A stretch of DNA of 64,000 nucleotides, taken from the NCBI RefSeq assembly GCF_012985205.1, contig NZ_JABEKS010000001.1, positions 1,178,001-1,242,000 on the forward strand, read 5' to 3'. Made by a program: the position numbers and the translations under genes. The notes under the pieces are model-generated. The model did no database searches. It had not been told where the DNA came from and saw only the letters and a program-made list of their open reading frames with translations. The DNA comes from Planctomonas sp. JC2975 (GTDB lineage Bacteria; Actinomycetota; Actinomycetes; Actinomycetales; Microbacteriaceae). The first letter of the stretch is position 1. Each line of letters starts with the position of its first letter. Below are positions 43,974 through 47,053 of the stretch, one piece after another.

Positions 43974-44516
43974 TCAGTCGGCCGCGCCTTGTCGCGTCTC
44001 CCACTCCGAGCGCAGCAGGCCCATGACGACGTTGTCCTCGTACCGTCCTCGCACCCAGGCATGTTCGCGCTGTCGGCCCTCGACCACGAAACCCGCCTTC
44101 TCATACGAGCGGATCGCGCCGGCGTTCGACGCGATCGCCTCGAGGTGCACGCGTCGCAGGTTGCAGCGCACGAACGCGAACTCCAGCAGCTGCGACATCG
44201 CCTCCGTGCCGATGCCCTTGCCGCGGGCCTCGGCGACCAGGGCGATCCCGACCTCGCCATGACGAGCGAGCTCATCGACGTCGAACAGCGAGACCGTGCC
44301 GACGGCGACGCCGTCGGCGTCGATCACGAACTGCACATTTCTTGCTGACGACTCGGCGTTGCCGGCCAGTCGGGCCTCGAATGCGGCCCTCGTCATCGGC
44401 GCCGGCGACGACGGGCTCCGCTCCTCCCAGGTCTCGAGCTCGGACGCGAGCGCGAACAGCATGTCCAGATCGGCATCGGTGCGGGCACGGAGCGTGACAG
44501 CGGCGGAACGTGGCAT
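43974..44516 (-). CDS. GNAT family N-acetyltransferase (RimJ/RimL-like)
   Basis: A 180-aa acetyltransferase. The acetyl-CoA motif is seen in VGIALVAEARGKGIGTEAMSQLLEFAF and the C-terminal EAIASNAGAIRSYEKAGFVVEGRQREH. It transfers acetyl to an amine (protein N-terminus, antibiotic or other). The ATG at 44516 follows TAACCT by 7 nt (leaderless type). Confidence 0.85.
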   Translation of the reverse strand: MPRSAAVTLRARTDADLDMLFALASELETWEERSPSSPAPMTRAAFEARLAGNAESSARNVQFVIDADGVAVGTVSLFDVDELARHGEVGIALVAEARGKGIGTEAMSQLLEFAFVRCNLRRVHLEAIASNAGAIRSYEKAGFVVEGRQREHAWVRGRYEDNVVMGLLRSEWETRQGAAD

Positions 44517-44648
44517 GCACCGTAGGTTACCGAGCGCAGCCGACGTCACGGATCCGTCACACCGCTGCGGCCCTCTCCCCGATCGCTGGAGTGCTGCGGA
44601 GGTCACCGGCGCAGCACTGCGGTCGCCACCGAATGCGCGCCGCTACCG

Positions 44649-45764
44649 TCACAGGGCGAGGCCCGCGTGCGATCCGTGCTCGCTGCGGGCGCGAGCCGCA
44701 TCCGCCAGCTCGCCGATCAGGACAGCGGTGTCGTCCCAGCCGATGCAGGCGTCCGTGATGCTCTGGCCGTAGACGAGACCCGCGCGACCGGCATCCGTGA
44801 GCGGCTGGTTGCCCGGCAGCAGGAAGCTCTCGGCCATGACGCCGGCGATCGGCTCGCCGGCGCGCACCTGATCCGCGAGTTCGCGGAGAACGGATGCCTG
44901 CCGCACATGGTCCTTGCCGCTGTTGCCGTGACTGGCGTCGACGACCACGCGAGGGGTGTGGCCGGCGCGTGCCAGCAGCGCCGCAGCATCCGCCACGTTC
45001 GCCGTGTCGTAGTTCGGCGCGCCGCGTCCGCCGCGCAGGATGACGTGGCCCGCATCGTTGCCGCTCGTGGACACCAGCGCCGCCCGGCCGTCGTCATCGA
45101 CGCCGAAGAAGACGTGGCGCTGCGCGGCGACCGTGCATCCGTCGACCGCGACCTGCACGTCGCCGTCGGTCGCGTTCTTGAAGCCGATCGGCACGGACAG
45201 CCCGCTCGCGAGCTGGCGATGGATCTGGCTCTCCGTGGTGCGGGCGCCGATCGCGCCCCAGCTGACCGCATCGGCGATGTACTGAGGGCTCGTGGGCTCC
45301 AGGAACTCGCAGCCGACCGGCAGCCCGAGCTCCAGGATGTCGATGAGCAGCTTGCGCGCCATCCGCAGGCCCTCGGCGACGCGGTGGGTTCCGTCGAGGT
45401 GCGGGTCGTTGATGAGACCCTTCCAGCCTCCGGTGGAACGCGGCTTCTCGAAGTACACGCGCATGACGACGAGAAGGTCGTCGCGACGTTCGCGTGCAAC
45501 GACAGCCAGCCTGCGCGCGTAGTCGAGCGCGGCATCCGGATCGTGCACGGAGCACGGCCCGACGACGACGAGCAGTCGCGGATCGTCGCCGCGCAGCACT
45601 GCCTCGATCTCGCGGCGGCTGCCGGCGACGAGCTCGGCCGCGTGCGCGTTCAGCGGCAGTTCGGCGCGCACCTGCGCCGGCGTCGGCAGCGTCTCGAGCG
45701 CGACCACGCGCGTATTCGACGTGGCTGCGGCCGGCGCGGCTTCTCCTGCGGATGGGATAGTCAT
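44649..45764 (-). CDS. aroG: 3-deoxy-7-phosphoheptulonate (DAHP) synthase, class I
   Basis: A 371-aa class I DAHP synthase, the first step of aromatic amino-acid synthesis (PEP plus erythrose 4-phosphate). LLVVVGPCSVHDPDAALDYA, VYFEKPRSTGGWKGLINDP, GFKNATDGDV and VVDASHGNSGKDH are the conserved metal and substrate motifs. GTGAGG lies before the ATG at 45764. About 100 bp upstream is a leader peptide rich in Trp, Tyr and Phe with a terminator, which indicates attenuation by aromatic amino acids. Confidence 0.95.
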   Translation of the reverse strand: MTIPSAGEAAPAAATSNTRVVALETLPTPAQVRAELPLNAHAAELVAGSRREIEAVLRGDDPRLLVVVGPCSVHDPDAALDYARRLAVVARERRDDLLVVMRVYFEKPRSTGGWKGLINDPHLDGTHRVAEGLRMARKLLIDILELGLPVGCEFLEPTSPQYIADAVSWGAIGARTTESQIHRQLASGLSVPIGFKNATDGDVQVAVDGCTVAAQRHVFFGVDDDGRAALVSTSGNDAGHVILRGGRGAPNYDTANVADAAALLARAGHTPRVVVDASHGNSGKDHVRQASVLRELADQVRAGEPIAGVMAESFLLPGNQPLTDAGRAGLVYGQSITDACIGWDDTAVLIGELADAARARSEHGSHAGLAL

Positions 45765-45823
45765 CGGTGGTCCTCACGTTCTGCGGCGAGAGGGCCAGGC
45801 CAACCCGCCGGTTAAAGGCGAAA

Positions 45824-45844
45824 GGCAGGATCTGCGATCCTGCC
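45824..45844 (-). terminator. Attenuator terminator of aroG
   Basis: On the minus strand GGCAGGATC-GCA-GATCCTGCC forms a perfect 9-bp stem followed by TTTCGCCTTT, a bona fide intrinsic terminator between the leader peptide and aroG. Its 5' arm follows directly on the leader-hairpin arm. Confidence 0.82.
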
Positions 45845-45905
45845 CGTTGGCTCTGGAGAAGTGCTGGTCAGCGCGTTCCGACCGTCGGCTCCTCCAGAGC
45901 CAACG
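45845..45905 (-). promoter_or_regulatory. Leader hairpin (arms 1 and 2) of the aroG attenuator
   Basis: Arms of 14 perfect bp: 45892-45905 and 45845-45858, with a 33-nt loop. Arm 1 lies in the leader peptide directly after the Trp-Tyr-Ala-Tyr-Phe codons, so a ribosome stalled there would cover it and free arm 2. The antiterminator pairing is not evident by eye. Confidence 0.7.
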
Positions 45906-45933
45906 CGAAATACGCATACCAGCGGGTGTTCAT
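45868..45933 (-). CDS. Aromatic leader peptide of aroG (21 aa)
   Basis: ATG at 45933 encodes MNTRWYAYFALALEEPTVGT followed by R and a TGA. Four of five consecutive residues 5-9 (W, Y, A, Y, F) are aromatic, exactly the end products whose synthesis aroG begins. Together with a 14-bp leader hairpin and a terminator before aroG this is a ribosome-mediated attenuator. It is too short for standard gene calls. Confidence 0.85.
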   Translation of the reverse strand: MNTRWYAYFALALEEPTVGTR

Positions 45934-46060
45934 GCGGGCGAGGCTATCAGAGCGGACGCGGATGCGCCAAAGAGCCGCATGCCCGCCGAGACGACGATCG
46001 CGCCGTGACGATGGCTTCACCATGGTCACGGCGCGAGTCCTCGGTCGACGTTCGGGCCGG

Positions 46061-47053
46061 TCAGTACTCGACGGCCACGCGCGGCATGCGTCCGCGACGC
46101 GTGCGACTCACGGCCAGACGCAGCAGCAGCACGACGGCCGCGACCACGACGGTCAGCACCAGAGGCGGCAGCAGCACGCTGAACTCGAACAGCGTCGACT
46201 GGAACGCGGCGACACCGTGTCGCGCCAGCACGGACGGGGCCGACGACAGGGCGTGCGACGCGGCCACTGCGCCGATCGCCACATTGATGGCAGGAGCGAT
46301 CCACACGAGCGCCAGCGCCACGAGGGCCGCGATGATGCGGCCTACCGTGTCCATCCCGCTCCAGCCGATCGCGGCCGCGATGATCACGGCCGGAAGCCAG
46401 GCGTCGATCTCGGTGCCGATCAGCTGCATGCGGGACAGCGACGTCAATGTCGTGTAGCTCGCCAGCCACTCCGAGAAAGGCAGCGCGGCGAGGGCGAAGC
46501 CGAGCAGGGCACCGGCGCGCGGCGCGCGGGCGATGAGCGCGAGGATCCCGGCACCGGCGATGATGGCGACCAGCGCGACGAGCACGATCACGGACAGGTA
46601 GGCCGTGGACTCGATGCGGTGCTTCACGCCGGCCTGGAGCACGAAGGCGGCCTGCGCCGTCGCCACCGCCTGCACGAGGACGACGCCGGCGAGCAGGGCC
46701 CAGAATCCGCCCTGTGTCAGCTTGGTGCGGGCGAGACGGCCGACGAATCCGGCGATCGCGGACCCGGCGAGGAACATCACGACGACGTCGCCGAGCCCGT
46801 TCTTGCCCAACGGCAGGAGTGCCAGGGGCATGTCGGATGCCGACGTGTGCGTCGCCCAGAGCTTCTGCACGGGTAGGGCCATGCCGCTCAGCAACCAGGG
46901 CAGCAGGCCCAGTGCTCCGACGACGATGCCGACGATGAGCCACGCCCACCAGAACGACGAACGCGGATCCTCCTCGATCACGTCGATCGAGCCGGTCCGT
47001 GGGTAGTGTCCGCTGCCGTTCAGCGCCGAACCCACCGAATACCCCTCTGACAT
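46061..47053 (-). CDS. Polytopic membrane protein of unknown function
   Basis: A 330-aa protein with about eight hydrophobic helices starting near residue 34 (WWAWLIVGIVVGALGLLPWLL). Before them is a short polar N-terminus (GYSVGSALNGSG) and at the end a basic tail (RLAVSRTRRGRMPR). I recognise no family motif. The ATG at 47053 has GGAAGGAG upstream. It faces the divergent GNAT gene. A role in the envelope is all that can be said. Confidence 0.75.
   Translation of the reverse strand: MSEGYSVGSALNGSGHYPRTGSIDVIEEDPRSSFWWAWLIVGIVVGALGLLPWLLSGMALPVQKLWATHTSASDMPLALLPLGKNGLGDVVVMFLAGSAIAGFVGRLARTKLTQGGFWALLAGVVLVQAVATAQAAFVLQAGVKHRIESTAYLSVIVLVALVAIIAGAGILALIARAPRAGALLGFALAALPFSEWLASYTTLTSLSRMQLIGTEIDAWLPAVIIAAAIGWSGMDTVGRIIAALVALALVWIAPAINVAIGAVAASHALSSAPSVLARHGVAAFQSTLFEFSVLLPPLVLTVVVAAVVLLLRLAVSRTRRGRMPRVAVEY

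Follow-up and report, generated by a model that had tools for sequence, protein, structure and literature searches.

A probable ribosome-mediated attenuator of aroG and its recurrence in many Actinomycetes

In the soil bacterium Planctomonas sp. JC2975, whose genome measures 4.36 Mb, the type I DAHP synthase gene aroG is preceded by a short reading frame with a run of aromatic codons, which raises the question of how this gene is controlled and which amino acid its control would respond to. We addressed this question in a stretch of 64,000 nucleotides around the gene (the window) and in related genomes. We propose, with a probability of roughly 85%, that an AroR-type ribosome-mediated transcription attenuator controls aroG; judged by its sequence, the leader with its hairpins very probably switches aroG on when phenylalanine or tyrosine is short. 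Ribosome-mediated attenuation at aroG, as suggested in a preliminary description of this DNA, was well supported: the leader codons are kept, helices 1:2 and 3:4 covary, and the leader residues track the downstream gene (Trp/Tyr/Phe before aroG, Tyr before tyrS). The features, all on the minus strand, are as follows.

45965..45970, minus strand: -35-like hexamer TTGGCG, 18 nt 5' of the -10, read from the sequence
45941..45946, minus strand: -10-like hexamer TAGCCT, 7 nt 5' of the leader ATG
45868..45933, minus strand: presumed leaderless leader ORF, 21 codons (MNTRWYAYFALALEEPTVGTR) plus stop, kept in relatives
45907..45921, minus strand: regulatory codons W-Y-A-Y-F (TGG TAT GCG TAT TTC), the Phe codon beginning 8 nt 5' of the invariant GGC of arm 1
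45892..45904, minus strand: arm 1, GTTGGCTCTGGAG, within the leader ORF, covarying with arm 2
45846..45858, minus strand: arm 2, CTCCAGAGCCAAC, pairing with arm 1 and possibly with a second partner, arm 1'
45824..45844, minus strand: hairpin 3:4, GGCAGGATC-gca-GATCCTGCC, 9 bp, presumed intrinsic terminator, supported by covariation
45806..45820, minus strand: P4, a small hairpin CGCC...GGCG directly 3' of the U tract
45795..45804, minus strand: arm 1', GTTGGCCTGG, a post-terminator copy of arm 1 and possible second partner of arm 2
44652..45764, minus strand: aroG, type I DAHP synthase of 371 aa, the presumed regulated gene; stop codon 44649-44651

The leader, its start and its hairpins

On the minus strand, the -10 is followed by the leader ORF with arm 1 inside it, by arm 2 past the stop codon and by 3:4, behind which come a short interrupted U tract, P4, arm 1' and aroG (start 45764). 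The aroG product matched NCBIfam aroFGH at 478.5 bits (E 8.6e-144; cut-off 173.2) and was the sole PF00793 match of the genome. A type II DAHP synthase gene (PF01474) is located elsewhere in the same genome, at C1:129814-131106 (L257); thus, aroG is not its only DAHP synthase, and the earlier notion of a single enzyme was wrong. Covariance-model searches of this genome reported the element only 5' of the type I gene. An acetyltransferase-like ORF (43974-44606, minus strand) lies 3' of aroG on the same strand, with every NCBIfam match below cut-off.

The 21-codon leader with its aromatic run was recovered as MNTRWYAYFALALEEPTVGTR at 45933-45868 (minus strand) and proved to be conserved in relatives; the same-genus genome G004 carries an identical leader (L019 and L069). 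Of 133 non-redundant leaders, 132 have a TANNNT motif 6-8 nt 5' of the start, compared with 0.57% at arbitrary upstream positions, a proportion slightly favoured by construction, since the choice of start codon preferred starts with a -10. Because this -10 is conserved, the leader mRNA is very probably leaderless, and transcription probably starts on the A of the leader ATG. A sigma-70 consensus scan listed no promoter at the -35 and -10 hexamers of the leader. Several S. lividans leaders, and likewise the ilvB leader of C. diphtheriae, have been described as leaderless (PMC8079986, PMC5784534), as has the ilvB leader of C. glutamicum (PMC11857589).

Arms 1 and 2 form 13 Watson-Crick pairs, or 16 consecutive pairs if one G-U is allowed, which comes near enough to the perfect 14-bp arm first reported. 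We analyzed covariation in 59 diverse sequences, filtered at 84% likeness by the score of our script. In helix 1:2, 92.5% of cells were paired, with compensatory change in nine of the 13 pairs (0 of 500 shuffles as high); in helix 3:4, 95.0% were paired, with compensatory change in eight of nine pairs. When the helices were slid as controls, the paired cells dropped to 27-50% (1:2) and 37-50% (3:4). Compensatory stem changes in relatives, which the preliminary description had named as a check, were thus observed for both helices. The folding energy of 45760-45960 gave a z score of -5.05 against dinucleotide shuffles, none of 200 being as good.

Such a strong and conserved RNA structure, with a possible three-way junction, might also belong to a ligand-binding riboswitch or a T-box for which translation is not needed. 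We consider this highly improbable, given that Rfam 15 contained no family at gathering score in the window besides a tRNA elsewhere (45700-46000 held only two chance microRNA matches, both with E above 2), and that an open frame, a start codon, a -10 and residues that follow the gene point to translation.

For the attenuator itself, the 9-bp hairpin of the proposed terminator was recovered, but a T-rich tail was not: the U tract after 3:4 of the window is only TTTCGCCTTT, and a mechanical scan (5 T in 8) reported no terminator in 45700-46100. The U tract was poor also in most of 33 relatives; among 11 leaders from a Corynebacterium-like genus, 3:4 is followed by 5-6 T in eight and by 4 T in three. 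The earlier caution that no antiterminator stands out by eye, and that the switch may depart from that of E. coli trp, was apt. A long classical 2:3 helix found no support as a candidate: only GCC:GGC remains, with a z score of -0.10 against shuffled T5 and no covariation, and the energy of the 2:3 antiterminator was -0.8 kcal/mol in two Microbacterium-type sequences. The pairs of GCC:GGC are available in 49 to 58 of the 59 sequences, depending on the pair, and 2:3 pairing in the nascent RNA rose from 0.08 to 0.28 with a stalled ribosome. In equilibrium folding, 3:4 was formed at a probability of about 0.98 in every state, whatever the ribosome does; therefore, the decision, if it is made at 3:4, must be kinetic. 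A candidate hairpin within the leader ORF, in which arm 1 would pair with GAGCC, had 75.4% of cells paired and a covariation score of 0.120, and its version slid by +1 column had 70.7% paired with a higher score (0.156).

Distribution and downstream genes

A protein search of 59 related genomes yielded 15 aroG loci in 14 genomes, and 13 of these loci have the leader and both hairpins. The two loci without a leader (L014, L015; G055:C16) are tandem type I genes of one genome. A first covariance model, R1, built from those 13 loci, matched 25 genomes among 398 of the family and 7 among 396 of the phylum. A second, R2, built from 33 sequences, matched 74 of 396 genomes of the order, 62 of 394 of the class and 81 of 201 of the family of G738; these are raw counts, weak matches included, from overlapping genome samples, and we read two of the 74 (L245, L246) as false. 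These two (E 1.6e-4 and 4.9e-4) were by appearance tRNA genes beside a hairpin and were left unused. In the Corynebacterium-like genus, whose identity is inferred, R2 matched only 1 of 61, though 11 of 12 type I loci there carry an aromatic leader with the -10 at 7 nt; thus, the covariance-model counts are uncertain in both directions. Ten of these 11 leaders contain Phe-Tyr-Phe. At L270, in the same genus, a type I DAHP synthase match has an in-frame TAG, and no leader was found there.

An exact pattern was present in at least 118 stretches of named genomes; the 80 listed (L046-L125) belong mostly to Arthrobacter and related genera, Sinomonas and Microbacterium, and also to Subtercola, Kocuria and Humibacter. 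A record titled Sporosarcina beigongshangi (L059) contains an Arthrobacter-like leader with aroG, probably through contamination or mislabelling. Among 180 aligned loci, a type I aroG lies 3' of the element in 174, and the other six comprise two tyrS and four with only 160-448 bases past the element start; 175 had usable downstream sequence (173 with an aroG start and two tyrS), of which 133 were non-redundant. On these sequence comparisons, the element is a widespread RNA family in many Actinomycetes.

Ten leaders stand 5' of a tyrosyl-tRNA synthetase gene (L037, L040 and L237-L244), assigned by NCBIfam tyrS (whole in L037 and L040, in part in L237) and by tblastn with the L037 protein (all of L237-L244). 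Each of the ten has TAT at -8 or -9, which in nine of them encodes the sole aromatic residue of the leader. Relatives would accordingly seem to run the same switch on tyrS with its key codon changed to Tyr. In L239, tyrS is broken into two reading frames, possibly by an assembly error. Besides L245 and L246, 18 further matched regions comprised eight tyrS, seven type I aroG (L247-L249, L252, L253, L255, L256) and three short ORFs (L250, L251, L254) that resemble the B. subtilis type of DAHP synthase only below threshold and whose leaders carry RYAF, SFAF and RYSSF.

Codon register, codon choice and the amino acid sensed

We counted the register of the leader codons back from the GGC at which the conserved part of arm 1 begins. 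At -7 to -9, 66 of 90 aroG leaders have Phe (-8), four have Tyr (-9) and 20 have a non-aromatic codon, 13 of these 20 having their last aromatic codon at -11; overall, 83 of the 90 have their last aromatic codon at -8, -9 or -11. This codon is at -8 or -9 in the leader of the window and in all 11 Corynebacterium-like leaders, as Phe in ten and Tyr in one. The Trp codon lies at -20 nt in 48 of 90 and at -14 nt in 22 of 90.

In a stall model on the window sequence, with an assumed ribosome footprint from -17 to +12 nt of the A site, helix 1:2 had a probability of 1.0 when the A site held the Trp codon or the first Tyr codon; this fell to 0.67 for the second Tyr and 0.49 for Phe, and was 0.69 for the stop codon. 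The same transition of 1:2 lay at -3 to -1 codons from arm 1 over 45 of 90 aroG loci. The number of 2:3 pairs was 5.6 with the ribosome on codons 13-15, compared with 2.9 on Phe. This model predicts that the Phe codon and the second Tyr codon decide and that Trp does not.

The preliminary description held that all three aromatic amino acids are sensed at once. Within attenuation, equal sensing of Trp, Tyr and Phe would account for the presence of all three residues in 78 of the 92 leaders found by covariance model, and the predicted insensitivity to Trp does not account for the conservation of this residue (82 of 92). The geometry, however, does not support equal sensing: a Trp codon at -20 or -14 nt is too far away to mask arm 1 under the assumed footprint, and in the model 1:2 stays intact while the ribosome waits at Trp or the first Tyr. 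In C. glutamicum, moreover, phenylalanine limitation is reported to raise aroF transcription via AroR, and tyrosine availability to have no effect (PMC11802643, a review), which fits Phe at the decisive position. We therefore regard equal sensing as doubtful; register, stall model and the C. glutamicum report together lead us to expect that the element senses chiefly Phe, Tyr to a lesser degree and Trp little.

For regulatory Tyr and Phe, the leaders mostly use TAT and TTT, the disfavoured forms. Codons were counted in 92 leaders, excluding the 80 loci L046-L125, whose retrieval pattern itself prescribed TAT, TAT and TTT. In these leaders, TAT and TAC occur 138:3, compared with 7:423 in the downstream aroG genes, and TTT and TTC 67:24, compared with 6:690; the leader of the window itself has TTC. 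Leaders from the protein search only (24 of 25 loci scanned; L014 and L015 are not among them) gave TAT 36 : TAC 0 and TTT 25 : TTC 15. Other codons of the 92 leaders were AAT 2 : AAC 44 (Asn), CAT 0 : CAC 14 (His) and GAT 16 : GAC 7 (Asp); since Asn and His codons of the same leaders stay C-ending, the bias is not plain AU richness. In six Corynebacterium-like leaders (L261, L264, L266-L269), codon 2 is Phe and always TTC; within the run, Phe is TTT with a single exception (L259), and L267 has TTT also at codon 3.

Most bacteria have one tRNA each for Tyr and Phe, which reads TAT and TTT by wobble; thus, selective charging of isoacceptors is not directly applicable, and the near-exclusive TAT and strong TTT are not explained by it. 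Such charging is what the codon bias of E. coli attenuators has been ascribed to (PMC1183508). These leaders could therefore serve as tests of codon choice in attenuators.

The region behind the terminator, the proposed switch and known systems

The P4 motif matched 107 of 133 sequences (95 in its strict form), compared with 23% when nt 7-34 were shuffled, and its variable pair was C-G in 70, U-G in 22, U-A in 15 and C-A in none. Between the terminator and aroG, the strongest predicted partner of arm 2 lay at a median of 15 nt past the terminator (10-90%: 11-19; n = 133). Duplexes of arm 2 with the segment 6-38 nt past the terminator averaged -11.8 kcal/mol, compared with -4.5 and -4.8 for two control segments. 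The own arm 2 beat the arm 2 of other classes by a mean of 2.3 kcal/mol, in 78% of sequences, with the limit that arms 2 of the CCCGG class pair with many G-rich segments. When each sequence was shuffled by itself, no more than 75 of the 133 reached p <= 0.05 for this pairing, and 38 reached p <= 0.01. In alignment A6, 57.7% of arm 2:arm 1' cells were paired, in a weak test with a shuffle mean of 55.8 and 4 of 500 shuffles as high; slid versions had 37-45% paired, and for pairs with double changes 341 of 500 shuffles were as high. Because the aligner fails to register arm 1' across clades, we relied on the duplex energies with their controls.

The contiguous GG[CT]TC form of arm 1' occurs in 77 of 133; within it, an A of arm 2 faces U in 56, C in two, A in two and G in one, and a G of arm 2 faces C in four, U in none and G in 12. 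Arm 1' begins -1 to +1 nt from the end of P4 in 78 of the 107 sequences with P4; thus, a compact three-way junction could be formed from arm 2, 3:4, P4 and arm 1'. In nine of the 11 Corynebacterium-like leaders, pairing of arm 2 with the post segment was -10.4 kcal/mol or weaker, and most of them are without arm 1'. These data suggest that arm 1' could be a second partner for arm 2. Another candidate, P0, in which the leader codons CCGCTGGT pair with the post-terminator ACCGGCGG, was suggested by the minimum-energy fold; against shuffles its mean z was -0.36 (controls -0.06 and +0.68), which is not clearly above chance.

A conserved arm 1' behind 3:4, together with the weak U tract, would also suit a leader that acts mainly on translation of aroG, with the position of the ribosome determining whether arm 1' can mask the ribosome-binding site, and 3:4 serving only as a structural or pause hairpin. 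Consistent with this, the site opens more easily with arm 1' occupied in two groups, by a mean of -2.0 kcal/mol over the 29 sequences of GGGTTCTG and of -2.8 over the 26 of GGGCTCTG. However, the effect is not general (57 easier against 51 harder of 125): it is absent from the window's GGTTGG group (23 sequences, mean -0.05) and has the opposite sign in the YWRF group (26, +2.0), the CAGGCTCTG group (7, +1.3) and the rest (14, +0.8). Accessibility of the SD by state folding was likewise inconsistent (22 up and 14 down of 131), and the T runs after 3:4 in the Corynebacterium-like leaders are terminator-like. Thus, arm 1' was rejected as a general mask of the ribosome-binding site, and control mainly through translation appears unlikely.

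Under transcription attenuation, the switch might operate as follows. A ribosome would load on the leaderless mRNA at the leader ATG. With Phe and Tyr tRNAs charged, it would run through, 1:2 would close and 3:4 would halt RNA polymerase. If Phe or Tyr is short, it would stall at the second Tyr codon or the Phe codon, 8-11 nt 5' of GGC, where its leading edge would cover arm 1 and leave arm 2 free. Free arm 2 could then nucleate on the terminator base (GCC:GGC) while polymerase reads on, and might afterwards pair with arm 1' past the terminator, making a three-way junction that includes 3:4 and P4. The sequences document the parts and their conservation, the covariation of 1:2 and 3:4, the register and bias of the codons and a possible second partner for arm 2; we infer the antiterminator, what arm 1' does and all of the kinetics. 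A broader proposal, which we put forward tentatively and hold to be somewhat less probable than its contrary, is that the element is a portable attenuator module of Actinomycetes in which one disfavoured, U-ending codon at a fixed register (8-9 nt 5' of the GGC of arm 1) sets the amino acid. The same RNA would then serve aroG through Phe and tyrS through Tyr, and perhaps also a third gene of DAHP-synthase-like kind, and the arm 2-arm 1' junction after read-through would be a second switch set by the same ribosome. The textbook trp scheme is not known to include either single-codon logic or a partner behind the terminator. Since the decisive codon is not the same before aroG and before tyrS, its identity, position and synonymous choice could be separated by single changes.

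An AroR leader of aroF in Corynebacterium glutamicum was reportedly described by Neshat et al. in 2014. AroR is described as an aromatic leader peptide 5' of the DAHP synthase gene that acts by attenuation (PMC4046766, PMC11802643). The present element resembles it in its consecutive aromatic residues before a DAHP synthase gene and, as AroR attenuation is reported to respond to Phe, in the residue expected to matter most; this likeness is drawn from the cited descriptions and from genomes of the Corynebacterium-like genus rather than from the C. glutamicum sequence itself. It differs in W-Y-A-Y-F with its Trp, in the weak U tract and in the post-terminator arm 1' and P4. With the three-hairpin model of C. 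glutamicum ilvBNC it would share a leaderless leader peptide, an anti-antiterminator, an antiterminator and a terminator, and, at the foot of the terminator, a GCC trinucleotide for which the structures compete; that attenuator concerns other amino acids and genes, and the account available describes no partner behind the terminator (PMC11857589). Actinobacterial trp attenuators likewise have GCC/GGC triples common to antiterminator and terminator, but use repeated Trp codons 5' of trp genes; the same survey states that it saw none conserved among RNA structures 5' of operons for phenylalanine and tyrosine (PMC1262725). The LEU element of leuA also joins a leader codon region to a downstream gene region by RNA pairing; there the codon run pairs with the SD, whereas here codon-to-post pairing was not clearly above chance (PMC1262725). 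The excerpts of open-licence full texts that we consulted gave no account of a wider family, of actinobacterial tyrS leaders or of a post-terminator partner. Taken together, what appears new here is the presumably leaderless leader, the disfavoured codons, the codon register that follows the gene and the possible second partner of arm 2, by which one reported Corynebacterium attenuator would become a widespread RNA family without a match in Rfam 15 and with a testable sensing rule for each copy.
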